Below are positions 3,955 through 60,828 of a DNA stretch of 64,000 nt, piece by piece. Source of the DNA: a virus. The notes under the pieces were generated by a model, which worked only from the letters and a program-made list of their open reading frames with translations, was not told where the DNA came from and searched no databases. Numbering within the stretch: position 1 is the stretch's first letter; each line of letters begins with the position of its first letter. The stretch is taken from the IMG/VR virus record IMGVR_UViG_3300032050_000029, positions 1 to 64,000 of that record. The stretch is one strand, 5' to 3'. Made by a program: the position numbers and the translations under genes.

Positions 3955-4578
3955 TTATTCCCATAGGTGATTATCAATTCCATTGCCTCTTCTGCTTTTA
4001 TAACCTAAGTATCCACTATGATGTCTTTTGGCATATTCATCATTAGTAAAATCAATCTCTTTCATAGTACCATATACAAGACAATCACCAATAACCGACA
4101 TAACTGTAGTTGACACAGTAGGAGTTAATCCAAGAGGACATATTTCTTCAGTTTCTCCAGTAAGTAGAGTTACATCTGCATATTTACCAAGATGAGAATG
4201 TTCATTTCTTGTTATGGCAATAATAGGAATATCCTGATAGAGATTTTTTGAAAGACTAACTAATTCAACAATCTCACGAGTCTTACCGCTATTTGAAATG
4301 AGTAACATTATATCATTCTTCTGTAGAATACCTAGATCACCGTGTTGTGCTTCGCTTGGATGAAGATACACGGCAGGGGTTCCTGTGGAACTAAATGTAG
4401 TTGCAATGTTTAGTGCAATCTGTCCAGCCTTTCCCATTCCACTACAAACAAGTTTACCACCTCTTCTATGTACTCTTTCAACAATGAGTGAGATGGCTTT
4501 GTTATAGTTTTCAGTAATTGGAATGTTAGAGACTGCGGCAGCTTCTTTGGTGACGATATCTTTGTATTGATCTAACAT
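3955..4578 (-). CDS. kdsD: SIS-domain sugar isomerase, arabinose-5-phosphate isomerase-like (KdsD/KpsF/GutQ)
   Basis: 207 residues. It contains VCSGMGKAGQIALNIATTFSSTG, HPSEAQHGDLG and LLISNSGKTREIVEL, the conserved motifs of the KdsD/GutQ SIS domain, and ends DDHL-like with the ..RHHSGYLG segment. The two C-terminal CBS domains of cellular KdsD are absent, as in the single-domain forms. It would interconvert ribulose-5-phosphate and arabinose-5-phosphate, the first step towards CMP-Kdo. A KdsB-like gene at 49.6-50.3 kb supplies the last step. The acyltransferase gene at 4584 lies directly upstream, 5 bases away. Confidence 0.85.
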   Translation of the reverse strand: MLDQYKDIVTKEAAAVSNIPITENYNKAISLIVERVHRRGGKLVCSGMGKAGQIALNIATTFSSTGTPAVYLHPSEAQHGDLGILQKNDIMLLISNSGKTREIVELVSLSKNLYQDIPIIAITRNEHSHLGKYADVTLLTGETEEICPLGLTPTVSTTVMSVIGDCLVYGTMKEIDFTNDEYAKRHHSGYLGYKSRRGNGIDNHLWE

Positions 4579-13858: not shown

Positions 13859-13887
13859 ATTATATGCATTAACCTAAAAAGGTTTAA
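13859..13887 (-). promoter_or_regulatory. Class B phage promoter
   Basis: TTAAAC (13887-13882), 17 bases, TATAAT (13864-13859), with TGCA before the -10. It overlaps the 3' end of the head-leader gene at 13884. Confidence 0.7.
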
Positions 13888-14450
13888 CGTAATTCGCGGT
13901 CAATTTGCTGGGATTGTTTTTGATCCTCGCGCTTTAGTTTCTGTAGAATACGGGCAATTTCATCGTCAGCTATCCTGATTGTAGCATCGGTTGCCTTCAT
14001 GCGGACATCTAGTTTAATCTTTTCTACATACCTCTGTAGTTTATCCGATATCTGACCAAGATTGTCCATTTCATCAGATATTGCAGTTTCGCGGTCTTGT
14101 AGAGATTTGATCTTCATTTCCTTAATCCTGTCTAGGTCAGTTGTATCAAGGTCTCCCTGTTGAGATGAATAGTCCTGTCCTTGTTCCGCTGCTTTAAGTT
14201 CATCCTTAAAGGCATCTACCTGGTCTTCCTGGATCTCAAGTTTCATTAACTCCACCTTTGTCTTAAATAGATCATCGGCGAGTTTATCAAGAGCACGTTT
14301 GGTTTTATTATCAACAAAGAGATTACGAATAAATCCAAAGAAACCTTCGTTAATAATTCCAGAAAGTTCTTCATGAGAAACCTTACCCTCTAGGATCTGG
14401 TAGGTTTCTTCCACTAATTGGAATTTTTCGTATGTCTTTATATGTTTCAC
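13884..14450 (-). CDS. Head-leader protein with coiled coil
   Basis: 188 residues with a GTG start (KHIKTYEKFQLVEE) that overlaps the stop of the upstream membrane gene (GTGA). Its beginning matches the capsid-targeting-like leader, with a further putative cut site at GIINE (residue 35). The rest is long charged helices with a basic end. An internal head protein is the best guess. Confidence 0.7.
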   Translation of the reverse strand: MKHIKTYEKFQLVEETYQILEGKVSHEELSGIINEGFFGFIRNLFVDNKTKRALDKLADDLFKTKVELMKLEIQEDQVDAFKDELKAAEQGQDYSSQQGDLDTTDLDRIKEMKIKSLQDRETAISDEMDNLGQISDKLQRYVEKIKLDVRMKATDATIRIADDEIARILQKLKREDQKQSQQIDRELR

Positions 14451-15820: not shown

Positions 15821-16195
15821 TTATTTTTTTTGAAAATATTTAATCATTATATGTGCTGATTTGTAATTGGTTGCAAGTGGTATGTCATGTACATCACATA
15901 CTCTCATTAACATTTGGATGTCAGGTTCATGTGGGTGTTTATCAAGAGGATCTCTAAAAAAGATTACACCTGTAATTTCCCCTCTTGTCACCATTGCACC
16001 TATTTCGGCGTCTCCACCAAGAGGGCCGCTGTTTACTCTTTCTACTTTATCAACACCGGCATGTGTGATCATTGTACCGGTTGTACCGGTTGCAACAATG
16101 TTAACATTACTTCTGTTAAAGAAATCTAGTCTTTTCATAACGAAGGCAACCATATCGGCCTTTTTACCATCATGGGCTATTAATGCAATTTTCAT
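15821..16195 (-). CDS. mgsA: Methylglyoxal synthase
   Basis: 124 residues with the family signatures IALIAHDGKK, ATGTTGT, NSGPLGGDAEIGA (catalytic Asp) and DPLDKHPHEPDIQMLMRVCD, then IPLATNYKSA. It would convert dihydroxyacetone phosphate to methylglyoxal. Cellular enzymes are about 150 residues; here the C-terminal tail is shorter. Its start overlaps the end of the membrane gene at 16192. Why a phage would make a toxic ketoaldehyde or drain triose phosphate is unclear; an altered specificity is possible. Confidence 0.85.
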   Translation of the reverse strand: MKIALIAHDGKKADMVAFVMKRLDFFNRSNVNIVATGTTGTMITHAGVDKVERVNSGPLGGDAEIGAMVTRGEITGVIFFRDPLDKHPHEPDIQMLMRVCDVHDIPLATNYKSAHIMIKYFQKK

Positions 16196-17215: not shown

Positions 17216-17321
17216 GGCTTCCTCTCAATACCTTCCAAATTAATTCAATAAGACTGTTTGCCTTAATTTTTTTACCTTCAACATTAAGAAGGTACTTTGA
17301 CTTGATTTTTAAGTTCTTCAT
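17208..17321 (-). CDS. Very small basic protein
   Basis: 37 residues: MKNLKIKSKYLLNVEGKKIK, then ANSLIELIWKVLRGSHE. It starts inside the end of the cytidylyltransferase and ends over the FkbM start. Length and overlap make it uncertain, but it fills a gap. Confidence 0.4.
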   Translation of the reverse strand: MKNLKIKSKYLLNVEGKKIKANSLIELIWKVLRGSHE

Positions 17322-17721
17322 TATAAATTCGTTTTCTAAGTTCAGTGCTAGAGAAAGAGTGATCACGTTTATTATAAATGATCTCTATGCCACGATTACT
17401 GCATATCTCTCTAGCGGTAAATTGTTTACTTTGATATTCATCGCCTATAATCCTAACATGAATATCAAATGTTAGGAAGATATCTTCAAGATCCTTTTCA
17501 GTTTCGTATGGTACTATTTGGTCAACCCATTTACATGCGGCAAGTTGAATGTATCTTTCAACTACTGACTGTATAGGCTTATTCTTATTAGGCCTATCTA
17601 TAGTAGGATTTGTTTGAAGAGCAATAATAAGATAGTCGCAATGACCTTTTGCCTCCTCTAACATTTTAACATGCCCTGCATGAAATAGGTCAAATGCAGA
17701 ACATGTAATTCCTATCTTCAT
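17284..17721 (-). CDS. Nucleotidyltransferase, glycerol-3-phosphate cytidylyltransferase-like
   Basis: 145 residues. SAFDLFHAGHVKMLEEAK holds the HxGH motif, and SSTELRKRI is the second conserved motif of the TagD/PCT-like superfamily. It would use CTP to make a CDP-alcohol (glycerol or similar) for surface polymer decoration. Exact alcohol unknown. Confidence 0.82.
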   Translation of the reverse strand: MKIGITCSAFDLFHAGHVKMLEEAKGHCDYLIIALQTNPTIDRPNKNKPIQSVVERYIQLAACKWVDQIVPYETEKDLEDIFLTFDIHVRIIGDEYQSKQFTAREICSNRGIEIIYNKRDHSFSSTELRKRIYNEELKNQVKVPS

Positions 17722-20432: not shown

Positions 20433-21281
20433 TTAATCTAAAACATCCCAGATCTTAGCGTACTTTTCTTTAAAGTCTTCGCCATAGGTTTCATCCCAGA
20501 TTCTTGCCAATTCGCGACGATCAACGTTTTGACGATTCTTAAGAATCTTTGCTACTTTAGGATAAGCAGAAACAAAGTCTTCATTATACAGTTCTTTCCA
20601 ATGATCATGAATGCCTTTCTTAACATCTTCACCTTCATTCATACTTTCATTCTTAGCGTTATCATATATAGATTTTAACCAAGATTCAAATTCCTTAACA
20701 TCACCTGCGGTATCTAAACCTTTATAACGATTATCGGTCTTAAATGCTTTAAGAAAATCTTTAAAGTTTTTGGCTTCTTGAGCTAATAGGTCAATCTCGG
20801 ACATAACACCTTCTGAGATAACTAATTCGACATCACGGTCTTTACCAGCAATTGCCACATTAAGTTCTTTCTCTAGGCCTTTCTTTTGAGCGGTGAGGTC
20901 CTTAAGTCTTTGTAAAAATGATGCCTCGGCTTTTTTATCACCAGATTCTTTAGCGGCTTTCCAATTAGTAACAATTTCAGCCATATCATTTATGATCTTG
21001 GTTCTGTCTTTTTCAATCTTTTCAATTGTACGACCTTCATTAACAGTAGATTCTGCTAAATTATTTTTAAGATAGTCTAAGTCAATATCAATCTCTATAC
21101 TCGTATTTGCTTTTTTGGCTTTTTCATTATGAGGCTTAACCATGAGTTTATCATACTTAATCTTTGTTACCTTCCAGTCTTCACCGTCTTTAAAGGAAAT
21201 AACATCACCAACTTTATAGTCTTTAATTGATAGGTCTTTTGCTTCATTAATAAATGAATCAATGTGTTTAATATGTTTCAT
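20433..21281 (-). CDS. Head-leader polyprotein-like protein
   Basis: 282 residues. Leader MKHIKHIDSFINE|A (putative cut after residue 13), then three more (L/V/I/M)-x-E sites with Gly or Ala after: STVNE|G at 82, ISE|G at 157, ESMNE|G at 216. The four pieces are about 60-75 residues each: a beta-rich SH3-like piece (YKVGDVISFKDGEDW), a coiled coil, a helical piece and a final KEKYAKIWDVLD piece. It looks like one chain cut into small internal proteins in the head. Confidence 0.75.
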   Translation of the reverse strand: MKHIKHIDSFINEAKDLSIKDYKVGDVISFKDGEDWKVTKIKYDKLMVKPHNEKAKKANTSIEIDIDLDYLKNNLAESTVNEGRTIEKIEKDRTKIINDMAEIVTNWKAAKESGDKKAEASFLQRLKDLTAQKKGLEKELNVAIAGKDRDVELVISEGVMSEIDLLAQEAKNFKDFLKAFKTDNRYKGLDTAGDVKEFESWLKSIYDNAKNESMNEGEDVKKGIHDHWKELYNEDFVSAYPKVAKILKNRQNVDRRELARIWDETYGEDFKEKYAKIWDVLD

Positions 21282-21297
21282 AGTAAATTACTTATTC

Positions 21298-21747
21298 TTA
21301 AATTTGATTTATACCAAAGTACTCCAAAAACTCTGGTGAAAGTTGTTCTTCTTTTGTAGGTTTTTCTATAGCTTGTGTTATCTTATCAATAAACGCACTT
21401 TTTAGTTTGCTAATATCAAGATACGGCCCAGTGAAACTTAGATCTTTTGGCTGTTTATCCAATTCCTCGAGTTGAACACTAATAGGAAAAGATCTAGAAG
21501 ATCCGCCAGAAGAAAATATGTAGAATCTTTTTCTGTCAGATCCTTCTAATTCATTTACATCAACACCGTTACTTATATCACCATACTTCGGAACCCAAAT
21601 TCCGGTTGCCGTTTGATTGTTAATTTTTACAGAAAACTTAATACCTTGCCTTTGCGTAGTATACGCTTTCTTATCAATCGGAGTATATGCAATTTTTAAT
21701 TTAACGGCTTCATTTAAGAAACTTTCAAATGTTTGTATGTGCTTCAT
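21298..21747 (-). CDS. Head-leader protein
   Basis: 149 residues from the ATG at 21747: MKHIQTFESFLNE|A is the clearest copy of the leader, then a beta-rich domain with KIAYTPIDKKAYTTQ and SGGSSRSFPISVQLEEL. The extra 17 residues of the longer frame are rejected because the leader would no longer be N-terminal. Unknown mature function. Confidence 0.75.
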   Translation of the reverse strand: MKHIQTFESFLNEAVKLKIAYTPIDKKAYTTQRQGIKFSVKINNQTATGIWVPKYGDISNGVDVNELEGSDRKRFYIFSSGGSSRSFPISVQLEELDKQPKDLSFTGPYLDISKLKSAFIDKITQAIEKPTKEEQLSPEFLEYFGINQI

Positions 21748-21757
21748 GGTAAAATAT

Positions 21758-22345
21758 TTATTCGTTATCCTGAAGTACCTTGGCAAACGATTTAGCATCA
21801 GTTACCTCTTCTCCAAATAGTTCAATTGTTTCATCATTAAGATTGATATAAATCTCAGATCCTTGGTGTTTCATATCAAGAATAATTGTATCATAATTCT
21901 TTCCAATTGCAGTACCACCCGAGATTCTTTTACCGGCTTTCTCTGCCCAGGTTGCAGCTTTCTTTACAAGACTAACTGCATAAGAACCCTTTCTCTTTGC
22001 AAAATCCATGATATTTGAAGGTACACTTGCGGCTTCACCAATCATAGATTCATTTTTATCGTACCATTCTTTGGCAAGTTTAACCAGTTCATCGTATGTG
22101 TATTTACCGGTAAGTGCATCACCTACGATAGTTTTACTCGATTCATTATCATACATAGATACATTATCAAATCCAACACCCGATGATCCTTTTTTTGGAT
22201 CAAATCCTAGTTCAGTACCAATTGTTTTAGAAAGACTAATATTACCACTAAATTGATCACTATAGCGCAGTTTTCCTTTATTTTGGAATCGCCTTGCGTT
22301 TGTGTTTTCGTTTAGAAATTCTTCGTATTCTCTAATATGTTTCAT
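21758..22345 (-). CDS. Head-leader protein
   Basis: 195 residues: MKHIREYEEFLNE|N leader; a second site ESMIGE|A near residue 102 divides the rest into two pieces. The last piece has a beta-rich segment (KNYDTIILDMKHQGSEIYIN). Unknown mature function. Confidence 0.72.
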   Translation of the reverse strand: MKHIREYEEFLNENTNARRFQNKGKLRYSDQFSGNISLSKTIGTELGFDPKKGSSGVGFDNVSMYDNESSKTIVGDALTGKYTYDELVKLAKEWYDKNESMIGEAASVPSNIMDFAKRKGSYAVSLVKKAATWAEKAGKRISGGTAIGKNYDTIILDMKHQGSEIYINLNDETIELFGEEVTDAKSFAKVLQDNE

Positions 22346-23127: not shown

Positions 23128-23514
23128 TTAGATCAATCCTTTAGGAATTGATTTTCCGGCTCCACTTCCACCTTTTCTACGAATTGCTTCTAATTCTTCA
23201 ATTGCAGTCTGATGGTTCTTTAGGTAAGTGAGTAACACACCTGTTATACGATCAGGATCAGCCAAAGATAAAATCTTTGCAATAGAGTAATGAGCTAATT
23301 TATGGTTCTTTTGAGCCATTTTAGCATCAGCAAGCATTTGTTCCAAAAGTCTTACAATTTGATCACGATGACCTTGTAGAGAATTTACTCCACCAATACC
23401 CCTATTATGAATTTCAATAGAGGAAGGATCTGCACCATCAAAGTTTGGATCCTTATCGTTTTGTACTACATTTTGTACAAATGATTCTGATATGAAGTCT
23501 TTATAGCTTTTCAT
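23128..23514 (-). CDS. Head-leader protein
   Basis: 128 residues. MKSYKDFISE|S, shaped almost exactly like the 10-residue T4 internal-protein leader (MKTYQEFIAE). The remainder is helical with KAIRRKGGSGAGK-like basic end. It starts one codon overlap with the next gene's stop. Unknown mature function. Confidence 0.7.
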   Translation of the reverse strand: MKSYKDFISESFVQNVVQNDKDPNFDGADPSSIEIHNRGIGGVNSLQGHRDQIVRLLEQMLADAKMAQKNHKLAHYSIAKILSLADPDRITGVLLTYLKNHQTAIEELEAIRRKGGSGAGKSIPKGLI

Positions 23515-30485: not shown

Positions 30486-31424
30486 TTAGAATGGTAAGTA
30501 TTCGGTTAGTAATTGATGATGTGTTTCTTTGTATCGTAAGACAGCCACTTCTTTGGCTTTTGCCTCTACCTCGATATCAACATCATGACCGTAGTCATTG
30601 ATCTGTTCATAGATAAAGTCAGCATGTGCCTGTGCTTTAGCCTCATTGTTCTCAAAGGTACGTCGGCATGAAGAATAGTGAAAGAGCGGTTTGATACCAT
30701 GATGATGCCATGTAGACATTGCCAATTCAAAGGCTTCTCTTTCTGAAAGACCACCGTCATTGAAACGGTGATGGTGGTAGTCAAATGTAATAGGTACCTT
30801 TACCGCCTGAAAGATGCCGTCATAAAGATCTTTTACTGAATACATACTTCCCTTATCGTCATTCTCCACAACCAGGCGGGATTGTGCCGAATCCGAGAGT
30901 AGTAGATAATTACTCGCCCATCTAGACAGTGTATCTATCTTACTGTTATATACACCATTACAGTGGATGTTGATGGGATACAGGTGAGATTGAGGGAGAC
31001 CCATTAGATCCATGATCTCCGCATGTTGGTTAAGTTCTTTGATTGTTTTCCGTACAAGTGTTGGATTAGGAGAACCTAAAACATTGAATGGGCCTGGATG
31101 AAAGGATAGCCTTTGGCCATACTTAAGAGCAAGATTACCTGCTCCACGAAGAAGAATTGAAATTTTACGATAATCTGGAAGGTCTTTGATTTCGTACTCT
31201 GACATCCAAGGAAACATATCAGAAGACATGCGATAAACCTTGAAACCGTTTTGATCATTCCATTTGATGATCTCTACTAGGTTGCGAGCATTAAGTAAAG
31301 CCAATTGACTTACATGTTCCAATCCCTTCTCATCATACGTGCGACGTATGCAGCTGTTATTGACCGAAACCCTTTTAGGTCGAAGGTTTAGGTTGATACA
31401 GCAATATCCTAAATTTGTTGCCAT
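30486..31424 (-). CDS. uvsE: UV damage endonuclease UvsE/UvdE
   Basis: 312 residues. LGYCCINLNL, RLSFHPGPFNVLGSPNP, YPINIHCNGVYNSK, VENDDKGSMYS and ITFDYHHHRFNDG give the metal-binding pattern of the UvdE TIM-barrel endonucleases (like endonuclease IV). It cuts 5' to UV photoproducts and abasic sites. Class A promoter upstream at 31442-31470. Confidence 0.92.
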   Translation of the reverse strand: MATNLGYCCINLNLRPKRVSVNNSCIRRTYDEKGLEHVSQLALLNARNLVEIIKWNDQNGFKVYRMSSDMFPWMSEYEIKDLPDYRKISILLRGAGNLALKYGQRLSFHPGPFNVLGSPNPTLVRKTIKELNQHAEIMDLMGLPQSHLYPINIHCNGVYNSKIDTLSRWASNYLLLSDSAQSRLVVENDDKGSMYSVKDLYDGIFQAVKVPITFDYHHHRFNDGGLSEREAFELAMSTWHHHGIKPLFHYSSCRRTFENNEAKAQAHADFIYEQINDYGHDVDIEVEAKAKEVAVLRYKETHHQLLTEYLPF

Positions 31425-42596: not shown

Positions 42597-42899
42597 CTAA
42601 TCCTTTTTATTTAATAGGTCTTCTCTCCCTAATTGTTTATAAACTTCTTTACGAGTCTTTTCCATCTTTTCCGCATATGCAGGATCATCATTACGATTAA
42701 AAACAACCTGCTGTGTGAGTGAACCGCTTATTCTTTTTAGATCGCCTTTTCTTGACTTAATAAGCCAAGCGGCGAGGTCCTTTGGTGAAAGATCTTTAAA
42801 ACGACCTTCTGCATCAGGAGCATCTGAATCATGCCAATCAGGAGCACCTTTAGGTTTTCCTTCAAATAGGAACGATTCGTATGCCTTAATGAATTTCAT
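42597..42899 (-). CDS. Head-leader protein
   Basis: 100 residues: MKFIKAYESFLFE|G leader. The remainder includes SPKDLAAWLIKSRKGDLKRI and a charged helical end (EKMEKTRKEVYKQLGREDLL). It begins a run of eight leader proteins up to 48492, with overlapping or touching ends. Confidence 0.7.
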   Translation of the reverse strand: MKFIKAYESFLFEGKPKGAPDWHDSDAPDAEGRFKDLSPKDLAAWLIKSRKGDLKRISGSLTQQVVFNRNDDPAYAEKMEKTRKEVYKQLGREDLLNKKD

Positions 42900-43315
42900 T
42901 ATTTAAGAGTAAGAAGATACTTTAACTTATCAAGTTCAGCAATAATCTCATCGATGATATTCTTAATTTCGGTATTACCGCCAGCCAATTCAGTTCCTTG
43001 CCCTAAGAATAAAGCATATGCTTTTTCTAAAAATATCGCAATGTTTTCTTCACTATAACCAGATAATTCAATTTCAGCTTCCATAAAAGAAGGTCTTCCA
43101 TGAATACCAATTAAAGATTCTGATAACTTATCAACTAATGTAAGATAGGTATCATAAAATCCACCAAATGCGCTATGTTGTGCAAATGATTCTGTTTGCC
43201 AATGAAATATATGGGCCTGATCTCTAAGTCCTAACATAGCAACAAAGAATGAGCCATAAATGTCTTGTGCTTCTCCGAAGTTTTCGTTTAAGAAATTATT
43301 AAATGATGTAATCAT
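42899..43315 (-). CDS. Dps/ferritin-like protein with head leader
   Basis: 138 residues. MITSFNNFLNE|N is the leader; then a four-helix-bundle-like sequence with IFHWQTESFAQHSAFGGFYD, resembling Dps-type or phage DUF5856-type proteins (the HWQ..S..H segment matches the ligand-bearing helix of such proteins). A DNA-binding or iron-binding protein packed with the genome is an attractive interpretation. Family from pattern memory. Confidence 0.65.
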   Translation of the reverse strand: MITSFNNFLNENFGEAQDIYGSFFVAMLGLRDQAHIFHWQTESFAQHSAFGGFYDTYLTLVDKLSESLIGIHGRPSFMEAEIELSGYSEENIAIFLEKAYALFLGQGTELAGGNTEIKNIIDEIIAELDKLKYLLTLK

Positions 43316-43318
43316 AGT

Positions 43319-43912
43319 TTAGTCTTTTATTGTTTTATCCCAGGCTGACATAAAGTCTGAACCGTCGATTTTGAAATATGATACGATATCAGCTACCTTA
43401 TCGTTCATTGACATTTCAACAGCATCTTCGTACTTATCTCCTGTAATTTCTTTATAGTGTTTGTGAATTGCTTTTGCCAAATCTTCTGGGTTAGGATATG
43501 CCATAATGTTTTCTTTCTTAAGAATAGCAATTGCATTCTTTAATGAAGTAGATTCATTAAGAGATTCTTCAACACTTCTTTTAGGCTTTCCAGTTTGTAT
43601 AATAGATTCTACCTCATCATATAATTCCTCGGCCTTTTTAATATCCTTCTTAGGTAGTCTAAATTTTCCCTTTGATGTATTAATCCAAAAATAGTCTTGT
43701 GATGGATTAGCATTTACAGAAAAAGATTCGGCACCAGTCATAAAAGGTATACTTCTACCCTGAACTGCCCATGACATAATATTAACAGTACTTGATGGAC
43801 TATTAATTAATTTAGCAAACTTATCAAGAATCTTATCACCGGTAGTTTTGTCTCCATCAGGATATGCAATCTTTTCAGTGATAAATTCATTATATTTTTT
43901 AAAGTATTTCAT
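43319..43912 (-). CDS. Head-leader protein with one internal cut site
   Basis: 197 residues: MKYFKKYNEFITE|K leader at 13; internal ESLNE|S at residue 120. First piece about 107 residues with WAVQGRSIPFMTGAESFSV; second piece helical (NPEDLAKAIHKHYKEITG). Unknown mature functions. Confidence 0.72.
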   Translation of the reverse strand: MKYFKKYNEFITEKIAYPDGDKTTGDKILDKFAKLINSPSSTVNIMSWAVQGRSIPFMTGAESFSVNANPSQDYFWINTSKGKFRLPKKDIKKAEELYDEVESIIQTGKPKRSVEESLNESTSLKNAIAILKKENIMAYPNPEDLAKAIHKHYKEITGDKYEDAVEMSMNDKVADIVSYFKIDGSDFMSAWDKTIKD

Positions 43913-43913
43913 A

Positions 43914-45392
43914 TTACATTAATGATTTAACAGACTTTAAGAATTTTGGATGATCTTTCTTTGGAATAAATTCAGAAAGAAGGTAATCAACAAAATCATT
44001 GGCTGTATCAAATGTCTGGGTTGCAAGTAAATGTCCGCCTACTTCCTTAGAAAACTTTGAACCTATATCTATAATCTTATATGCATCATTATCAGAAAGC
44101 TCTTCATTAAGTTTCTTAGGTCTATTTAATACTGGATATTTTTTACCATTAAATTCAAACTCCTCGGCATCTTCATCAATTGCTTTTGCACGGGCAGCAA
44201 GGAATGCATTACCTTCAGTAATAGTTTCCTTTAAAGCCTTTTGAAAATCTTCAGTATCAGGAATAAGATCCTCGGCACTTAGTGCCTTTGCTCTCTTAAC
44301 AATAAATTTAGCAGTAGCGGATTGATCCTTTGAGCGGCCGTATGCCTGAATAGCATTTTTAAGATCCTCTAAGTCTTTAATTGGAAATGAACCATCAGGT
44401 AAGGCTAAGCCTTTATCAGCCATATCTTTTCTTTCTTCATCAGAGTATTCACGTTCGTTAAGAGATTCATTAGTTTCAATCGCACCTAATTGTTTATCGT
44501 ATTTAGATATAAAGAACTCAAGTTTTTCAACCTCTCTTTGAATTTGATCTAATGCCTTTCTCCATTTTAGGTCAACTGTCTTTTTATTAAGATCAGATAT
44601 CTTATTCTTAAGATCATTAAACTCAGGTTCTACTATATCAAAGATAAGAGCTTCACCTTCAGTGATGGATGTTTCCCTTTCATAAATTCCAACATTGATT
44701 GATTTATCTGCTTTAAAATCTACAAGAGTAGCCCCAATAAGTTCCCCAATCTTTTCCCAAGTACCACGTTGACTCATATAACTGGACATTCTAACTTCAT
44801 ATCCTTTACCAGATTTTGAAACCTTTTTTATTGCATTACCAGATATACCCAGTTCTTCAACTGCCATTTCCAAATCATATTTGAAGTCTGACATATTACC
44901 GTTATAGGCTTCATTAACCGATTCTCTGATACCAAGATCTTCTTTTGCAAGTTTAATTGCAGTATCATAATAAAGCTTAGTGCCTTGATCACTAGTTGAA
45001 TTAAGAGCCTTTGTAAGTTCTTTAATGTTATCGTTTCCATCAAAATTAAATTTCTTTAAGGCATTAGGGGAAACTCTAAAGAAGTCAGATAGTCTTGAAA
45101 TAACTTCATCTTTAATTTTAGGATTTACTTCTTCATTAACCGATTCACCAACATAGATAACTTTCTTACCCATGTTTCTGGCTTTAAGAGATGCCCATTT
45201 AACAGCATCGGTATAGTTCATTGCAGAAGGAGTAAAAATAGGTTCATCACCAATTGGATCAAGGTAAAATGCCCACATTCCATTTCCACGCGGTTTTTTA
45301 CCATGTACTCTTTCGTAGCGTCTAGTACTAACCTCTACACCTTCGTATTTTTCCTGGAGTTTAAACTCACTGTATGATCTAAAATGTTTCAT
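43914..45392 (-). CDS. Head-leader polyprotein-like protein
   Basis: 492 residues with leader MKHFRSYSEFKLQE (14) and six internal sites of the (V/I/L)-x-E type: SVNE at 87, SVNE|A at 161, SITE|G at 245, SLNE at 313, TITE|G at 393 and KLNE at 430. Pieces are about 40-84 residues. One piece has DGSFPIKDLEDLKNAIQAYG, another FEFNGKKYPVL, both of which I recall from phage prohead-type proteins. Best explained as a string of small head proteins released by a prohead protease. Confidence 0.75.
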   Translation of the reverse strand: MKHFRSYSEFKLQEKYEGVEVSTRRYERVHGKKPRGNGMWAFYLDPIGDEPIFTPSAMNYTDAVKWASLKARNMGKKVIYVGESVNEEVNPKIKDEVISRLSDFFRVSPNALKKFNFDGNDNIKELTKALNSTSDQGTKLYYDTAIKLAKEDLGIRESVNEAYNGNMSDFKYDLEMAVEELGISGNAIKKVSKSGKGYEVRMSSYMSQRGTWEKIGELIGATLVDFKADKSINVGIYERETSITEGEALIFDIVEPEFNDLKNKISDLNKKTVDLKWRKALDQIQREVEKLEFFISKYDKQLGAIETNESLNEREYSDEERKDMADKGLALPDGSFPIKDLEDLKNAIQAYGRSKDQSATAKFIVKRAKALSAEDLIPDTEDFQKALKETITEGNAFLAARAKAIDEDAEEFEFNGKKYPVLNRPKKLNEELSDNDAYKIIDIGSKFSKEVGGHLLATQTFDTANDFVDYLLSEFIPKKDHPKFLKSVKSLM

Positions 45393-45395
45393 ATA

Positions 45396-46751
45396 TTATA
45401 GATATCTTTGTGCCATTCTTTCCCAATTGTTTAGACCTGCCTGTTTGAAACCTGCAGCCTTAACAAAGGTTCTCATTGAGACGTCTTTTGCGCGTTTCAT
45501 AAATTCAAAAATTTCTTCTTTATCTTTGAGAGGCATATCTCTTGGTTCAAGATCTGGTAAAAGAATCTTAATTCTTTCCATTAGAGTCATATCATCAGGA
45601 TTAACGTCAATTAAGATTGATCTTGAACGAATAGCTCCATCAGGGTCAGCTTTATCTTTAGGAAGGTTTGAGATAAATACCACTCTACCGGCAAAATCAA
45701 AATATGCAGGAACTAATCCATTTTCAATTGCATTAAATTCACCTTCTGGATTATTTTCAAAATCTTTAGGGTCAAATACTAATCCACTCTTCTTAAGATA
45801 AGAAATTCTTCTGGTCTTTTTAGTATCAAGAGCGGCCTTTAAGATGTTACGACCATTTTCATCACGGAATACAGCATCACAGTCATCAAATACAAGAACT
45901 TGATTTCTGTATTGATACATTTTCTTATACATCATAATAACTGATACTGCTCCGGACACAACGATAAAGTCATCATCCTCAATAAGACCTTCATCTTTTA
46001 ATGCTTTAGTAACAGAGAATGTTTTACCAGTACCTGCTCTACCTGAAACCATTAGGGAAGTAAATGCACCAGCAGCAAGTCTTCTAGTAATTTCATAAAG
46101 GTCATCTAATGTTTCATCCAATAGTTTAACCTTATCTTGCAAAGTTAATTCGTTTGCCTTTACTGCAGGATTCTCATCTTGAGGAACATTTACATTTCTC
46201 TTAAGTTGTAGGATCATACCGTATGATACTCCCATATCTCTTGCAATAGCAGCGCCGCTTTCGCCTTTATCCAATCTGCTTAAGATTGTTTTCTGCTCAG
46301 CTGGTGAGAAAGATTTAGTTGCTTCATTAAGAGTAGATTCAGTTAATGATTCTACTTCTGTTGCATATGAAGGTTCATTGACTAATTTAACAAATTCATT
46401 AAGTAATGCAACAATTGGGAATGTTTCACTACTAACAGAAAAATCAGCCGTTTGTGAAGCAGCATCAGAAAAATAGTCCAATTGACCAACTACACCAGGA
46501 AAACGACCAGCCCCGCCGCTAATTCTAACCGCAGAACTATCTTTATCACTATAAAGCATAATGCCCGGGGTTCCATTTGAATATACCAGGAACGGGAATT
46601 TCTTAAATGCCTTACCGGTTTTCTTATTTAAGAAGTTTGTAATAATATCAGCGGCCTGATTCAATTTGGCATCATTTTGAACTGTTGTCATTGAAGTAGC
46701 AAAAGCTTCATTAATTTTCTTAAATTCCGAATAATTAGGAATATGTCTCAT
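45396..46751 (-). CDS. AAA+ ATPase with head leader and HTH
   Basis: 451 residues: leader MRHIPNYSEFKKINE|A (15), an N-terminal piece to TLNE|A at 143, then an HTH-like segment (SFSPAEQKTILSRLDKGESG, then IARDMGVSYGMILQLKR) and an AAA+ domain with Walker A GRAGTGKT (237-244) and Walker B VLVFDDCDAVF, plus sensor-like RVVFISNLPKD. An ATPase carrying a capsid leader is unusual; it may be injected to act on host DNA. Role unknown. Confidence 0.75.
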   Translation of the reverse strand: MRHIPNYSEFKKINEAFATSMTTVQNDAKLNQAADIITNFLNKKTGKAFKKFPFLVYSNGTPGIMLYSDKDSSAVRISGGAGRFPGVVGQLDYFSDAASQTADFSVSSETFPIVALLNEFVKLVNEPSYATEVESLTESTLNEATKSFSPAEQKTILSRLDKGESGAAIARDMGVSYGMILQLKRNVNVPQDENPAVKANELTLQDKVKLLDETLDDLYEITRRLAAGAFTSLMVSGRAGTGKTFSVTKALKDEGLIEDDDFIVVSGAVSVIMMYKKMYQYRNQVLVFDDCDAVFRDENGRNILKAALDTKKTRRISYLKKSGLVFDPKDFENNPEGEFNAIENGLVPAYFDFAGRVVFISNLPKDKADPDGAIRSRSILIDVNPDDMTLMERIKILLPDLEPRDMPLKDKEEIFEFMKRAKDVSMRTFVKAAGFKQAGLNNWERMAQRYL

Positions 46752-46778
46752 ATCTTTTTTTATTATTTGTTTATTTAT

Positions 46779-47321
46779 TTACCAAGGTTCAGTGCTACTT
46801 AAACCTAACTGTTTTCCAAACAAGCTTGGACCATAACATGCCCAGAAACCTGCCTTATTAGGATCCATCTTTTCTGCTTTATCGCAACCATGCCTTGCCC
46901 AAAAAGATGCAGCCCGACCTGGATCATCATTCTTTACAGTAAGATTAGGATCACCCCATTCAATCTTTCTTGCAACCACATCGCCATTTTCATTAGTTCT
47001 ACCAGTATTACGATAAACGATAAACTTTTTATTTCCACCTCTTTCTGGTGAATCGAGTTTTACCTTAGTAGTTCTTCCGGTTTTACGGTCAGTATAAACA
47101 GCGGGTTTTCCAACCTCGAGATTTTTTGCCATCCAACCGCTCTTTCCGTTTAGGATGATATTTCCTTTATCCCAATATTGTTTTACTTCTTCAAATAGAT
47201 TGGCATATGAATCTGAACCTAAGCGATAAACACTGTTTGTTAAATCCAAACCATTTTCTATATGATATTTAAGTCCCTCGGAGACTTTATGATAATCATT
47301 AAAGTTTTTTACAAATTTCAT
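46779..47321 (-). CDS. Head-leader protein
   Basis: 180 residues: leader MKFVKNFNDYHKVSE|G (15). The rest has a basic patch (YTDRKTGRTTKVKLDSPERG) and ARHGCDKAEKMDPNKAGFWA with conserved-looking Cys. No further cut site. Unknown function. Confidence 0.65.
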   Translation of the reverse strand: MKFVKNFNDYHKVSEGLKYHIENGLDLTNSVYRLGSDSYANLFEEVKQYWDKGNIILNGKSGWMAKNLEVGKPAVYTDRKTGRTTKVKLDSPERGGNKKFIVYRNTGRTNENGDVVARKIEWGDPNLTVKNDDPGRAASFWARHGCDKAEKMDPNKAGFWACYGPSLFGKQLGLSSTEPW

Positions 47322-47323
47322 AA

Positions 47324-47770
47324 TTACTTAATAGGGTTTGGATTGTTTGCAGCATCCAGATTTTTTTCTTGCCATCCGTAAGATATCTTATCATCGGTTA
47401 TAGGACCACCCTTTGCCCATGTATAACAAGAGCGGGCAGAATGGCATTTAAAGTGATGCATCCAACAATAACCTAATCTTCCATCGCCATCACTAATTTC
47501 ACCTGGCATACATTCTAACATACGAGGAGATATGTCAAAAGCCACACAATTTCCACATGTAGATGCTTTAGCTGCATCAACACTGGTATTCCAATGATCT
47601 GCTAAATGTTCCCAATAACCTGCAGGTTCATCTACATTAAGAGGTCCATAATCAATAAAATCTGCATGAATTGCTCTATCACGATTTTTGGTATTAACTT
47701 CTAAATCTTTAGTTGGTACAGGACATGAAGTAGCTTCTTTAAATTCTTCAAATAGTTTTATTGTTTTCAT
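47324..47770 (-). CDS. Cys-rich head-leader protein, HiPIP-like
   Basis: 148 residues: start MKTIKLFEEFKEATSCPVPT; then CGNCVAFDISPRMLECMPGE and GYCWMHHFKCHSARSCYTWA. The spacing of CxxC followed by two further Cys loosely recalls high-potential iron-sulphur proteins, and the C-terminal W is also typical. The leader is weaker in this copy. Iron-sulphur binding is only a suggestion. Confidence 0.6.
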   Translation of the reverse strand: MKTIKLFEEFKEATSCPVPTKDLEVNTKNRDRAIHADFIDYGPLNVDEPAGYWEHLADHWNTSVDAAKASTCGNCVAFDISPRMLECMPGEISDGDGRLGYCWMHHFKCHSARSCYTWAKGGPITDDKISYGWQEKNLDAANNPNPIK

Positions 47771-48492
47771 TATCCTTTTTTTAGATTTTTATCATGACCA
47801 CCTTTAATTACTTCTTGTGCTACATCAGCATCGGCACCATAAGCGCCTTTAGGTCCATTCTTTTGAGGATCTTTAATAGGACGACCCCATGTTCCTGGTG
47901 CTTGAGTTAAAAATGAATTAACTCTAGCATAACCCCACTGTTCTTGTCCTGCACCAGGTCTATGACCACTTTTCCATGCAGCCATTCCACGACGCATTAC
48001 TATTCTAAGAAGCGGTAAAGGAACACCTGTTTCCTCGCTCTTTTTCTTTAACCCAGTTTCAATAGCATCATTATCAATCGGCGAACGATCCCCACCTGCG
48101 TCATCCTCATTAATCATAAATGGAAGAATACTAAAATCCTTGATCTCTTTTTCTATTTTAAGATCATTTTCTTTAAGCTTTTGATAGAGTTCCCAATTAA
48201 TGATAGATTCATTTTTAGTGTCCTTTTCATCATCAGCATAGATATCCTGATAATTCTTAGTATGTTTAGAAGGTTTTAGGAGTTTCTTTCCTTTGGTGTC
48301 GCCTGGTAATTCTTTATAAGCAGAAGGATCATTATCAGGTTTAGCAGCCTGGTCTTTCATTTGATCCACTTTCTTGCGGGCAGTTGAGGTTGATATACCT
48401 TTAAAGTATCCGTGGCCTTTTATTTTATCCTCGAAGTCTTTTTCTTCTTTCTTTTCAGTTAAGAAGTTAACAAACGTTTTAATAAATTTCAT
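47770..48492 (-). CDS. Head-leader protein with DUF5824-like C-terminal domain
   Basis: 240 residues: leader MKFIKTFVNFLTE|K (13), a disordered charged middle, MINE|D at residue 129, and a C-terminal domain with VMRRGMAAWKSGHRPGAGQE and QWGYARVNSFLTQAPGTWGR, which resembles DUF5824 proteins from large phages and giant viruses. Unknown biochemical role. A terminator lies 44 bases upstream. Confidence 0.7.
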   Translation of the reverse strand: MKFIKTFVNFLTEKKEEKDFEDKIKGHGYFKGISTSTARKKVDQMKDQAAKPDNDPSAYKELPGDTKGKKLLKPSKHTKNYQDIYADDEKDTKNESIINWELYQKLKENDLKIEKEIKDFSILPFMINEDDAGGDRSPIDNDAIETGLKKKSEETGVPLPLLRIVMRRGMAAWKSGHRPGAGQEQWGYARVNSFLTQAPGTWGRPIKDPQKNGPKGAYGADADVAQEVIKGGHDKNLKKG

Positions 48493-48535
48493 GTTAGGAT
48501 ATCTTTTTTTATTTATTCATCATAACATAGAGAAA

Positions 48536-49625: not shown

Positions 49626-50345
49626 TTATATTGATTGTTTTCTATTTTGTTTAAGATATGTTTCAATCATTTTTAAGTCTTCTGGTGTATCAACACCTTT
49701 AGCAGCATGAAGAACTGTATTACATACAAATGATATTCCAGAATCTGCCCATCTTAACTGTTCTAAAGATTCTGCAATCTCATTTTCTGTTTGTGTTTTA
49801 AGCTTTACTATCTTTTCTACAATCTCCTTAGGAAATGCATATGCCCCAATATGCTTTTCTACATCAGGACTAAAAAGATAAGAACTGCTCCTGGTAAACA
49901 TTACAACCTTTTTACCAGACTTAATGAGTTTTACTACATTTCTATTGGTTAGTTCTTCTTTGGATAAAAGAGATGATAATGTAGAAACTGATTGTGTGTT
50001 TCTATTTGCCAGATTAATAAGAGAGTTAATATCTCTAAATGATATACCAGGTTCATCGCCTTGTATGTTTATAAGAATATCATATGATAGATCTTTAGCA
50101 GCTTCTAATACGCGATCTGTGCCGGTTTTACATTCACCTGTCATTATACATTTACCACCAAATTCATTAACCTTAGTGCGGATTCTTTCATCGTCTGTTG
50201 CCACATAGACTTCATCTGCCAATGATTTTTTACATTCTTCATAAACCCATTGGATCATTATTTTATCTAAGATCTTAACAAGTGGTTTTGCAGGTAGTCT
50301 AGTTGATCCCCATCTTGCAGGGATAATTATAATTGTCTTTTTCAT
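49626..50345 (-). CDS. kdsB: 3-deoxy-manno-octulosonate cytidylyltransferase (CMP-Kdo synthetase)
   Basis: 239 residues: IIIIPARWGSTRLPAKPLVK, VYVATDDERI, MTGECKTGTDRVLEAA, NIQGDEPGIS, GAYAFPKEI and GISFVCNTVL-type segments all fit KdsB. It links Kdo to CMP for LPS. With the KdsD-like enzyme at 3955, two of the four Kdo steps are present. KdsA and KdsC are not seen in this window. Overlaps the next gene by 4 bases. Confidence 0.88.
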   Translation of the reverse strand: MKKTIIIIPARWGSTRLPAKPLVKILDKIMIQWVYEECKKSLADEVYVATDDERIRTKVNEFGGKCIMTGECKTGTDRVLEAAKDLSYDILINIQGDEPGISFRDINSLINLANRNTQSVSTLSSLLSKEELTNRNVVKLIKSGKKVVMFTRSSSYLFSPDVEKHIGAYAFPKEIVEKIVKLKTQTENEIAESLEQLRWADSGISFVCNTVLHAAKGVDTPEDLKMIETYLKQNRKQSI

Positions 50346-57113: not shown

Positions 57114-59390
57114 TTAATAAATTTTAGTTAGCACGAATATATCGGTGTAAATACTATTATTTGCATTGTTGCTAGACCACTGTGCGGTTACATCCAGAGT
57201 ATTAGATGTTGTGGTATCAAATGTTGTAGTATTAATTGTATTAAAACCAAAACCTTCTTGTGAACCGCTTGCAAGTTTAAGAATATGCATTTGACCTAAT
57301 GTTGCTATTCCAGCAGTACCAGCACCACCTATAGCTCTAATTGTAAAATCTATTGTTAGATTCCACACCTGGTTAGTTATACCGCTACCAGGCATAGTTA
57401 ATGGCCCGCTATCTGCAAGAACCACACTTCCACTTTTAATTCTAAGTCTAAGTGTATTACCATTTTGGGCAGACATAATACCACTCATATTTGCGGTAAA
57501 ACTATCACCTACTGCAAATCCATTAGCAGGAACAGATAAAGTTCCAACCCCACTGCCTAAAATACTCAACTCCGTTGTAGTGGCTGTAACTGGAGTTGAG
57601 TTTGCTATCTGTGAAAATAGGCCTGCGCTGGAACTTGCCTGTGGGCCAGTTGATCCAATAAATCCAGTTGATCCTATTAGTCCAGTTGCTCCAGTAAAAC
57701 CTTGCGGACCAGTTGGGCCAGGTATTCCGTTTAAACCGGATGTGCCAGTTGCACCGGTGGCTCCAGTAAAACCCGTTCCAGTGGCTCCAGTAAAACCTGT
57801 TCCAGTTGCTCCAATTAGACCCGGATCCCCTTGGGTTCCAGTGGCCCCAGTAGAACCCATTCCAGTTGCTCCAATAAAACCCATTCCAGTTGCTCCAATT
57901 AGACCTGGGTCACCTTGAGCACCAGTTGCGCCAGTAGAACCTAAACCTGTTGCTCCAATAAAACCTGGATCACCCTGGGTTCCAGTTGCACCAGGATCGC
58001 CCTGTGTGCCAGTTGCGCCGGTTGCACCTTTTTGCGTATATGTTACTTGTTGAGCAGTTAAAATTACAGATGGTACAGCTGGGCGAGTAGGACTAAATGT
58101 TACGGGTATGTACGTAAGTTCAATATCAGTATTAGGACATGACCAATAGAGTTCAATGTAGTCTCCTGCATTTAGTTTTAGTTGATAATTCCATGCAGCA
58201 ACATCCTTTGCCCCAGAGCTCGGTCCTGAAATGAACAAAATGGTGTTAGAGTCAGGGATTGATACTCCATTTTTTGCAAACCAAATATCAACCTCTGCCG
58301 CTAAAGGAGCGGCAAGTATTCTATTAACCTGTGCAGAAAATTGTATATTATAAACACCTTCATATGCAAATGTTAGTTCCGTGTTATTTTGAATAGAAAC
58401 ACCATTTGAATCTGGGTCAGTGTTATTAAATGACATTACATTAACGGCATTAGGTGTTGGATTGGTTTGTGTTTGTGTACTCCAAAAACTACCCCAATAA
58501 CCTAATGTACCACCTGCACCTTGGGGGCCGGTTGCACCTATACCGGTTGCACCAATAAATCCTTGATTACCTTGCGATCCGGTTGAACCAGTAAATCCTT
58601 GATTACCTTGCGATCCGGTTGAACCAGTAAATCCTTGAGTTCCTGTTGCACCAGTTGAACCAGTAAATCCTTGATTACCTTGCGATCCGGTTGAACCAGT
58701 AAATCCTTGTGTTCCTGTTGCACCAGTTGAGCCTTCTCCAGCCAAACCTTGCACACCAGTTGCCCCGTGAATACCTGTTGCTCCAGTTGATCCTATTGCG
58801 TATCCTATACCACTACTACCAGGCTGAGGTGGAATGTATCCAGGAAAACATCCGCTATCTCCACCGTTTTTTGCAATTTTTGAATTAAGAATATTTGCAA
58901 TTAGTAAACATGGAATGCCAAACGTTTCACCATCCGCTCCGGTTGGTGTAGGTACTCCAGTTAAAATTCCTTGCTCACCTGTTAATAAACATTCCTTTAA
59001 TATGATCTCTGCAGAAACAGCACCAGGTGAAGTTAATGTACAGTTAGTTGATAAGCATATTCTAACAAGACCCTTATTTACAATATGACCACCTGTTGTA
59101 GTGTATTGTAAAATCTCAATATCAAATCCTTTTGATCCAGTAGGAACACCAGGATACCAAAAATTTGCAACAACGCATTCAAATTCATTCGTTAATTGAA
59201 TTTGCATTTCGCAAAAACGATCTAGGTCAAGAGGTTGACCATCAGCACCAAAAAACTGAATATCAATACACGCGGATGTACCTTGCATTATATACTTAAT
59301 GCAATCTACTTGTGCTATAATTCTACCGCAAATGGTAAGAGCACACGATGGATCACTTGGCGTTGGTACACCTGGTATGATATTTGCCAT
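57114..59390 (-). CDS. Collagen-like fibre protein
   Basis: 758 residues. Layout: beta-rich N-terminal domain (1-190, many Cys); collagen Gly-X-Y block one (about 200-300, [16 protein letters not shown]-type); C1q/jelly-roll-like domain (about 300-460, [17 protein letters not shown]); collagen block two (about 462-605); C-terminal beta domain to 758. It resembles collagen-like tail or capsid fibres in large phages and may bind a host surface. The repeats are coded by near-identical DNA (58553-58731). Confidence 0.85.
58553..58731. repeat. Tandem repeat within the collagen-like gene
   Basis: Repeats built from AATCCTTGATTACCTTGCGA and TCCGGTTGAACCAGT on the plus strand, in units of about 36-54 bases, coding for [12 protein letters not shown]. 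Copy number could change by recombination and alter fibre length. Confidence 0.8.
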
Positions 59391-59994: not shown

Positions 59995-60828
59995 TTACTT
60001 TTTTACTACCAATGCGGCATCTCCAGGTTCTACACCACCATATTTAAGATTTTTGGCTGAATAGTCTGTGTTGTATTCTGGAGTAGATGTTTTAGCAGGA
60101 TCTTCGATCCACACAATTACCACACCGTCTTTATATGCGCATGCTTTCAATACTCCCCAAGTTTCTTCCTTTACAGGGCTCTCTTTTCTGTATTGGTCTC
60201 TAACAGCGTCAATTGCAGTGTTGTCATCGGGTCCGTGCTTAAGGTATTTAGTAACCTTGGCACCAACCACAGATTCAATAAAACTTGCAAGTTCTCTTAC
60301 AACATCACCTCTCCCACTTACATAATCATTCACAAGTCGGTCAGCAAAAGCTCTTACAGAAGAAGCAGGACCTGGTTGTACAGGTATCAGTTCAGGTGTG
60401 TAAGAATCGTAAAGTTTATCTAGCAATGCAATTGTCTTGTTGATTGCTGCAACTGCTTCAGATTCATTTGATACTTGCATTACAAGAGGATGAGAGTATC
60501 TAAACTTAACAAGCTTGAACCCTATACCTTCCATTGCCCTTTCGAACTCTTTGAGGAAAGACGCGTCAATCTTTCCGCTCTTATCTCCGCGTTTCCAGTT
60601 AGTCAAATTCCGAATTGCTTTGTCTATTTCGGGAGATCTCAAGAAGCTGTCTTTGTCGCGAATGTCGGCAAAATCTTGTTTATCCGAAGGAGCTACTGCA
60701 GCTTCCAGGCTGTGGCCTCCTCCGTATTGTTGTCTCAAATTGATCTGAAGGAAGTATGGTCCTCCAGACACTGCTTCATTTAATATGCTTTCATTTAAGA
60801 AGCTCTCGAATGTTTGTATGTGTTTCAT
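59995..60828 (-). CDS. Head-leader protein
   Basis: 277 residues: MKHIQTFESFLNE|SILNE|A, a leader with two potential cut sites (13 and 18). The rest has IDASFLKEFERAMEGIGFKL and a C-terminal GVVIVWIEDPAKTSTP. A clean, well-supported member of the leader family. Unknown mature function. Confidence 0.7.
   Translation of the reverse strand: MKHIQTFESFLNESILNEAVSGGPYFLQINLRQQYGGGHSLEAAVAPSDKQDFADIRDKDSFLRSPEIDKAIRNLTNWKRGDKSGKIDASFLKEFERAMEGIGFKLVKFRYSHPLVMQVSNESEAVAAINKTIALLDKLYDSYTPELIPVQPGPASSVRAFADRLVNDYVSGRGDVVRELASFIESVVGAKVTKYLKHGPDDNTAIDAVRDQYRKESPVKEETWGVLKACAYKDGVVIVWIEDPAKTSTPEYNTDYSAKNLKYGGVEPGDAALVVKK

Follow-up and report, generated by a model that had tools for sequence, protein, structure and literature searches.

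The product of the gene at 43914-45392 is probably a phage-head cassette polyprotein, in which a leader would package the chain, an S77 protease would cut it, and the pieces would become internal head proteins that are probably ejected. It lies in the window, by which we mean the whole stretch of viral DNA analysed, 64,000 nucleotides long (positions 1 to 64,000 of IMG/VR record IMGVR_UViG_3300032050_000029). The analysis shows cut-type sites, leaders, a protease gene and an exchange of pieces that takes place at those sites. We infer packaging, cutting and ejection, and the steps would run as follows. The leader would act like a T4 capsid-targeting sequence and take the whole chain into the prohead core, where the phage's own prohead protease, of the S77 (T4 gp21) type, would cut after Glu at (V/I/L)-x-E, mostly in the contexts ES(V/L)NE and (T)ITE. 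Cutting would remove the leader and free about seven small proteins inside the head. The freed pieces would stay with the DNA and probably be ejected into the host at infection like T4 Ip1-3, and the cut sites would double as borders for cassette exchange between genes and phages.

The evidence also leans slightly towards a more general mode of multi-cargo head loading, in which one leader imports up to a dozen or so proteins, the protease frees them and the sites serve as standard joints. An earlier note on this DNA had proposed that several small effectors are delivered from one leader. One leader carrying several cargo proteins is the best explanation of the data, while the role as host effectors takes its plausibility from the analogy with T4. 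Our best guess, given this analogy with T4 Ip1-3 and the fast change of the pieces, is that they are early host-takeover or anti-defence proteins. If the proposal is true, a DNA phage uses a polyprotein strategy like that of RNA viruses, loading its numerous cargo proteins in equal quantity with a single targeting tag, and a leader followed by ES(V)xE joints would be a simple sequence rule for finding many head-packaged phage proteins. The contents of phage heads besides DNA would become directly testable by peptide mapping.

Leader, sites and predicted pieces

The six (V/I/L)-x-E sites reported in the earlier note are all present, at 87 (GESVNE↓E), 161 (RESVNE↓A), 245 (TSITE↓G), 313 (NESLNE↓R), 393 (KETITE↓G) and 430 (KKLNE↓E), and its report of the same context in the proteins at 20433, 43319 and 45396 was verified (Table 1). 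The spacing, described there as even, is not so, the pieces measuring 73, 74, 84, 68, 80, 37 and 62 aa. After cutting, pieces would begin with, for example, AYNGNMSDFK, GEALIFDIVEPEFNDLK, GNAFLAAR and ELSDNDAYK. The predicted new N-termini are K15, E88, A162, G246, R314, G394 and E431, and the chain of about 56 kDa would yield products of 8.3, 8.4, 9.3, 8.0, 9.0, 4.2 and 7.0 kDa. The leader of the 43914 protein, with its predicted cut at KLQE↓K, differs from the T4 leader in that the gap between the Phe and the cut motif is one residue longer.

To this protein two AlphaFold2 models were fitted from shallow alignments (15 sequences for the whole protein), the mean pLDDT being 67.0 for residues 81-320. 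In the whole-protein model, which is poor (mean pLDDT 62.5), five of the six sites fall in putative linkers, largely as the proposal of cut sites between domains would have it: low-confidence segments (pLDDT<50) at 75-89, 154-164, 233-255, 294-315 and 423-430 hold sites 87, 161, 245, 313 and 430, while site 393 lies inside a predicted helix (381-406, pLDDT about 73-82). M2 forms a folded block in the predicted models. M5 at any rate constitutes a separate domain, since it matches an 80-aa stand-alone viral protein as well as parts of larger proteins in the viral library, and recurs in the C-terminal part of the capsid maturation proteases of actinobacterial (Gordonia and Microbacterium) phages.

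Searches for solved structures resembling the models gave no PDB match below E 0.07, and none by sequence either. When the window protein and 16 relatives were scanned against Pfam and PHROG, the pieces received no curated function and no enzymatic domain over the cut-off, and the hallmark of polyvalent proteins, enzymatic or toxin-type domains in one chain, was not found in these scans. In these chains, a single stretch passed a Pfam cut-off, one of Dockerin type in relative L063. A Gig2-like Pfam match at residues 255-358 was discarded, as it is below the cut-off and crosses site 313. A cellular origin of the pieces was rejected, a single scan of 84,980 prokaryote genomes having turned up no relative.

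Leader and head genes were surveyed across the 64-kb window and the stretch 92001-111999 of the record, where 15 proteins fit the leader pattern (aromatic-x-x-Phe, then hydrophobic-x-Glu). The 43914 gene belongs to a run of eight nearly touching minus-strand leader genes (42597-48492), with leaders such as MKFIKAYESFLFE↓G, MITSFNNFLNE↓N and MKYFKKYNEFITE↓K. The C-terminal piece of the 43319 protein is part of a longer chain in related locus L006. From its sites, the ATPase-like part of the 45396-46751 protein is predicted to be freed inside the head. The sequence TATATAAA stands 22-29 nt ahead of the protease, portal-like and other head-region genes, and AATAAATAAA is its variant; the placement of the two gives a weak hint of late expression.

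Table 1. Features of the window considered here (arrow, predicted cut; L numbers, related loci)
Feature	Position	Strand	Remarks
Putative cassette polyprotein gene	43914..45392	minus	492 aa, pI 5.4
Capsid-targeting-like leader, residues 1-14, MKHFRSYSEFKLQE	45351..45392	minus	Tyr-x-x-Phe then Leu-x-Glu
M1, residues 15-87, end GESVNE	45132..45350	minus	orthologues only in L004, L005
M2, residues 88-161, end RESVNE	44910..45131	minus	between sites in L104, L106, L108, L111/L112, L005
M3, residues 162-245, end TSITE	44658..44909	minus	also in L010/L051, L006, L008 (see text)
M4, residues 246-313, end NESLNE	44454..44657	minus	in L005, L096-L099, after VSE↓G and VYE↓G
M5, residues 314-393, end KETITE	44214..44453	minus	conserved domain
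M6, residues 394-430 (GNAFLAARAK...), end KKLNE	44103..44213	minus	25 independent upstream contexts
M7, residues 431-492	43917..44102	minus	in L004, L005
Second putative cassette polyprotein gene	20433..21281	minus	282 aa; leader MKHIKHIDSFINE↓, four pieces, sites 82, 157, 216
Leader gene	43319..43912	minus	site EESLNE↓S at 120
Leader gene	45396..46751	minus	sites 138/143 (ESLTE↓S, ESTLNE↓A) before AAA-type ATPase-like region (phrog_1250, weak AAA_16)
Leader gene, DUF5856 / Dps-like	42899..43315	minus	capsid-targeting-like leader
Leader gene, MKFIKAYESFLFE↓G	42597..42899	minus	
Leader gene, MKFVKNFNDYHKVSE↓G	46779..47321	minus	
Leader gene, MKTIKLFEEFKEA	47324..47770	minus	
Leader gene, MKFIKTFVNFLTE↓K, DUF5824	47770..48492	minus	starts the eight-gene run
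Leader gene, MKHIQTFESFLNE↓SILNE↓A	59995..60828	minus	TATATAAA 23 nt before
Leader gene, MKHIQTFESFLNE↓A (from internal Met)	21298..21798	minus	
Leader gene, MKHIREYEEFLNE↓N	21758..22345	minus	
Leader gene, MKSYKDFISE↓S	23128..23514	minus	
Leader gene, MKHIKTYEKFQLVEE	13884..14450	minus	
AATAAATAAA, late-promoter-like (weak)	46770..46779	minus	28 nt before 45396 start codon
AATAAATAAA, late-promoter-like (weak)	48508..48517	minus	25 nt before 47770 start codon

Head genes and exchange of pieces

The full record of 121,978 bp carries a Peptidase S77 match over the Pfam cut-off (PF03420, G000:102270-102617; also phrog_207). The match lies within a 576-aa protein, the rear part of which repeats (L/V)-(A/S/G)-E every ~17 residues and looks like a fused scaffold. 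The protease gene is adjoined by a portal-like 549-aa protein, named from place and size only, and by the major head protein (phrog_138), which carries LINE↓A (residue 9) and NLNE↓S (residue 46) in its N-terminal region. Among phage records, the nearest capsid proteins are those of an uncultured phage and of Prevotella, Sphingomonas (PAU), Tenacibaculum and Chryseobacterium phages, which points, short of proof, to a host among the Bacteroidota. In the cultured phage PAU, proteins annotated as internal capsid proteins start with leaders of the type found in the window, MKTISKLYEAKLNE↓A and MKSLTNLYENKLNE↓A. At L073 (8953-10683), an S77 protease is fused to a scaffold-like region, in which (L/V)-(A/S/G)-E recurs about every 17 residues, possibly as many self-cut sites.

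Conservation of the sites in homologues, on which the earlier note had staked its proposal, was found. The decisive evidence is this comparison: relatives differ by whole inserted, lost or swapped pieces of ~40-90 aa with their borders at the sites, and the sites are retained. L005, which is 48% identical to the window protein, lacks the stretch between sites 161 and 245 (M3) and carries added pieces at sites 87 and 313. In L004, the stretch between sites 87 and 313 is replaced, the shared pieces being 96-100% identical. At the 20433 locus, the leader Glu of the L074 orthologue is separated from what is otherwise the next piece by one additional piece, and in L077 one piece is missing and the leader is joined directly to GRSIEK, which in the window sits after the internal site ESTVNE. 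Several uncultured relatives (L014, L019, L034, L067/L101, L105, L108) are strings of 640-1029 aa, with consecutive pieces of ~50-90 aa joined by ESVVNE↓A, ESLTE↓G and similar sites.

About eight piece families directly follow a leader in some proteins but an internal site in others, namely M3 and the AKDLS, GRTIEK, SMSSY, GKKIQ/ERNIT, AKVDY/AATDL, AARIG and ATLNG kinds. M3, for example, comes right after the leader in L010/L051 (MKHLNNFESFVNE↓S) and after internal sites in L006 and L008. Leader ends and internal sites are thus equivalent joints. The short GNAF piece (M6) occurs in three tandem copies in the N-terminal part of the L104 and L105 polyproteins, with x-x-Glu before each copy.

This fast gain, loss and swap of pieces among close relatives suits accessory cargo better than the chief rival, a core or scaffold protein of the T4 gp22/gp67 kind, whose protease-cut products would serve assembly (core building, DNA condensation) and be expelled or kept, and would not be host effectors. 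A scaffold-like region is moreover already present, fused to the protease, and the 43914 gene sits among the eight leader genes, ~50 kb from the capsid genes. An assembly role is therefore unlikely, though it deserves weight: in T4, gp21 breaks core proteins down into several fragments (PMC9026906), M5 lies also within the actinobacterial phage proteases named above, M6 occurs in very many related chains, and most pieces of the 43914 protein are acidic, whereas the T4 internal proteins are basic.

Borders, contexts and the extended motif

Local alignments between such proteins end at sites in both partners in 149 of 973 cases, against 4.5 expected from rotated sites (max 14 of 200). The same border test gave 82/525 vs 2.4 (max 10 of 500) once redundant ends had been merged and the window group left out. 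Many alignment ends lie off strict sites, some of them perhaps because they fall at looser ones (VYE↓G, LDE↓E, IKE↓S). In the upstream contexts of M6 (n=25, independent), P1 is Glu in 25/25 and P3 is V/I/L/M in 23/25, with P2 and P4-P10 variable, a pattern that equals the known rule of T4-type prohead proteases. The P1 Glu can also be read as the first turn of M6 itself, so that the M6 contexts alone are no proof of cutting. Over 201 contexts of all pieces, with the register uncorrected, P1 is Glu in 67% and P3 is V, I, L or M in 67%.

Bare (V/I/L)-x-E is found at 17 places in the 492-aa protein, and leader proteins show no enrichment for it (16.0 vs 18.4 per 1000 aa), from which it follows that the six sites of the earlier note had been picked by their longer context. 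The bare motif was accordingly discarded as the signal. The extended motif ES(VILMTF)1-2-x-E occurs at 2.77 per 1000 aa in leader proteins vs 0.25 elsewhere (9 vs 5 sites). Because this motif was defined on the window, a held-out test was carried out on loci from other contigs, excluding the window and its closest relatives. In these loci, 372 sites were found vs 56 in shuffled proteins. When the P1 Glu was swapped the excess was gone (ES[h]xK, 86 vs 70 shuffled; ES[h]xD, 35 vs 48 shuffled), and the order-changed control SE[h]xE gave 83 vs 57 shuffled. The held-out loci have 2.90 motif sites per 1000 aa in leader ORFs vs 0.85 in other ORFs, with a Fisher p of 1.5e-28 that is overstated because many ORFs are related to each other. 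The longer ES(V..)xE context is not due to chance. KS[h]xE is also in excess in the held-out loci (156 vs 63 shuffled).

At the ES(V)xE sites of L002-L125, codon use is skewed relative to the background of the same genes (Val GTA 76% vs 37%, Thr ACT 89% vs 51%), so part of the conservation may be at the DNA level. This skew, together with the fall of exchange breakpoints at the motif, would fit sites that are never cut, with ES(V)xE acting as a conserved linker or DNA recombination joint in a beads-on-a-string protein and its conservation reflecting module shuffling only. We regard this as quite improbable, since at M6 only the P1 Glu and hydrophobic P3 are kept, which is a protease rule and unlike a DNA repeat, the internal sites are interchangeable with the leader end, a real cut site in T4, and the N-terminal region of the capsid protein has the same motif. 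Hardly credible is a chance origin with selection by the reader, in which six convenient sites were chosen from the many (V/I/L)-x-E offered by a Glu-rich phage proteome, as the count and lack of enrichment of the bare motif would allow; it is refuted for the extended motif, since the held-out loci show both its enrichment and a link to module borders far stronger than that of rotated sites.

Known systems, cultured relatives and other genes

Precedents exist for internal proteins targeted by a leader, for S77 proteases cutting after Glu and for core proteins cut at several places (PMC9026906, PMC10052503). In T4 IPIII, the first ten residues suffice for packaging, with residues 4 and 7 acting in targeting and 8 and 10 in processing (PMC9026906). 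T4 Ip1-3 have the leader alone in common, and each blocks one type IV restriction enzyme (PMC12373910). Like the system proposed here, T4 Ip1, Ip2, Ip3 and Alt combine a short leader of aromatic-x-x-Phe and a hydrophobic-x-Glu cut with variable accessory genes and an S77 protease. In T4, however, each leader carries one protein, whereas here about seven pieces in the window protein, or more in relatives, stand behind one leader. T4 gp22 and gp67 likewise receive multiple gp21 (S77) cuts after Glu in one head protein, as is predicted here, but their fragments are mostly scaffold scraps, whereas the present pieces are separate domains that recur and change places from one protein to another.

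In phiKZ and SPN3US, head proteins are cut by gp21-like proteases after a short x-x-Glu, and some propeptides are cut more than once. Of the 14 mapped SPN3US sites, 13 serve to take off N-terminal propeptides and the remaining one a C-terminal propeptide (PMC10052503); multiple mature proteins are not freed from one chain there, in contrast to what is predicted for the 43914 chain. Polyvalent proteins, in the parts of the source consulted (PMC5512222), similarly carry many domains per chain, are thought to be injected, are built as mosaics and have a proposed role in host conflict. The same parts describe many large enzymatic domains, with peptidase domains of their own proposed for processing, and describe no leader with repeated prohead-protease sites. 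In the literature searched, mostly papers open without subscription, no prior account of an exchangeable cargo chain under one leader was found.

Among 50,697 phage records, L034, L014, L122 and the 20433 protein had no match. The nearest cultured lead is immuto26A_192 of Flavobacterium phage vB_FspM_immuto_2-6A, which shares stretches with related loci and has two strong sites. In sampled stretches of Tenacibaculum phage PTm1 and Sphingomonas phage PAU, which have related capsids, and of the Flavobacterium phage immuto, the motif occurs at the background rate, so the polyprotein system is not general.

Several other genes of the window were assigned in passing. KDO/heptose-type sugar genes at 3955-4578, 49626-50345 and 17284-17721 comprise a KpsF/KdsD-like isomerase, a KDO cytidylyltransferase and an rfaE-type nucleotidyltransferase, and several glycosyltransferase-like genes lie beside them. 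A methylglyoxal synthase (15821-16195) scores over the curated cut-off of two models, and a UV damage endonuclease UvsE (30486-31424) over that of one model. The gene at 57114-59390 encodes a protein of collagen-like Gly-x-y repeats, probably a fibre.
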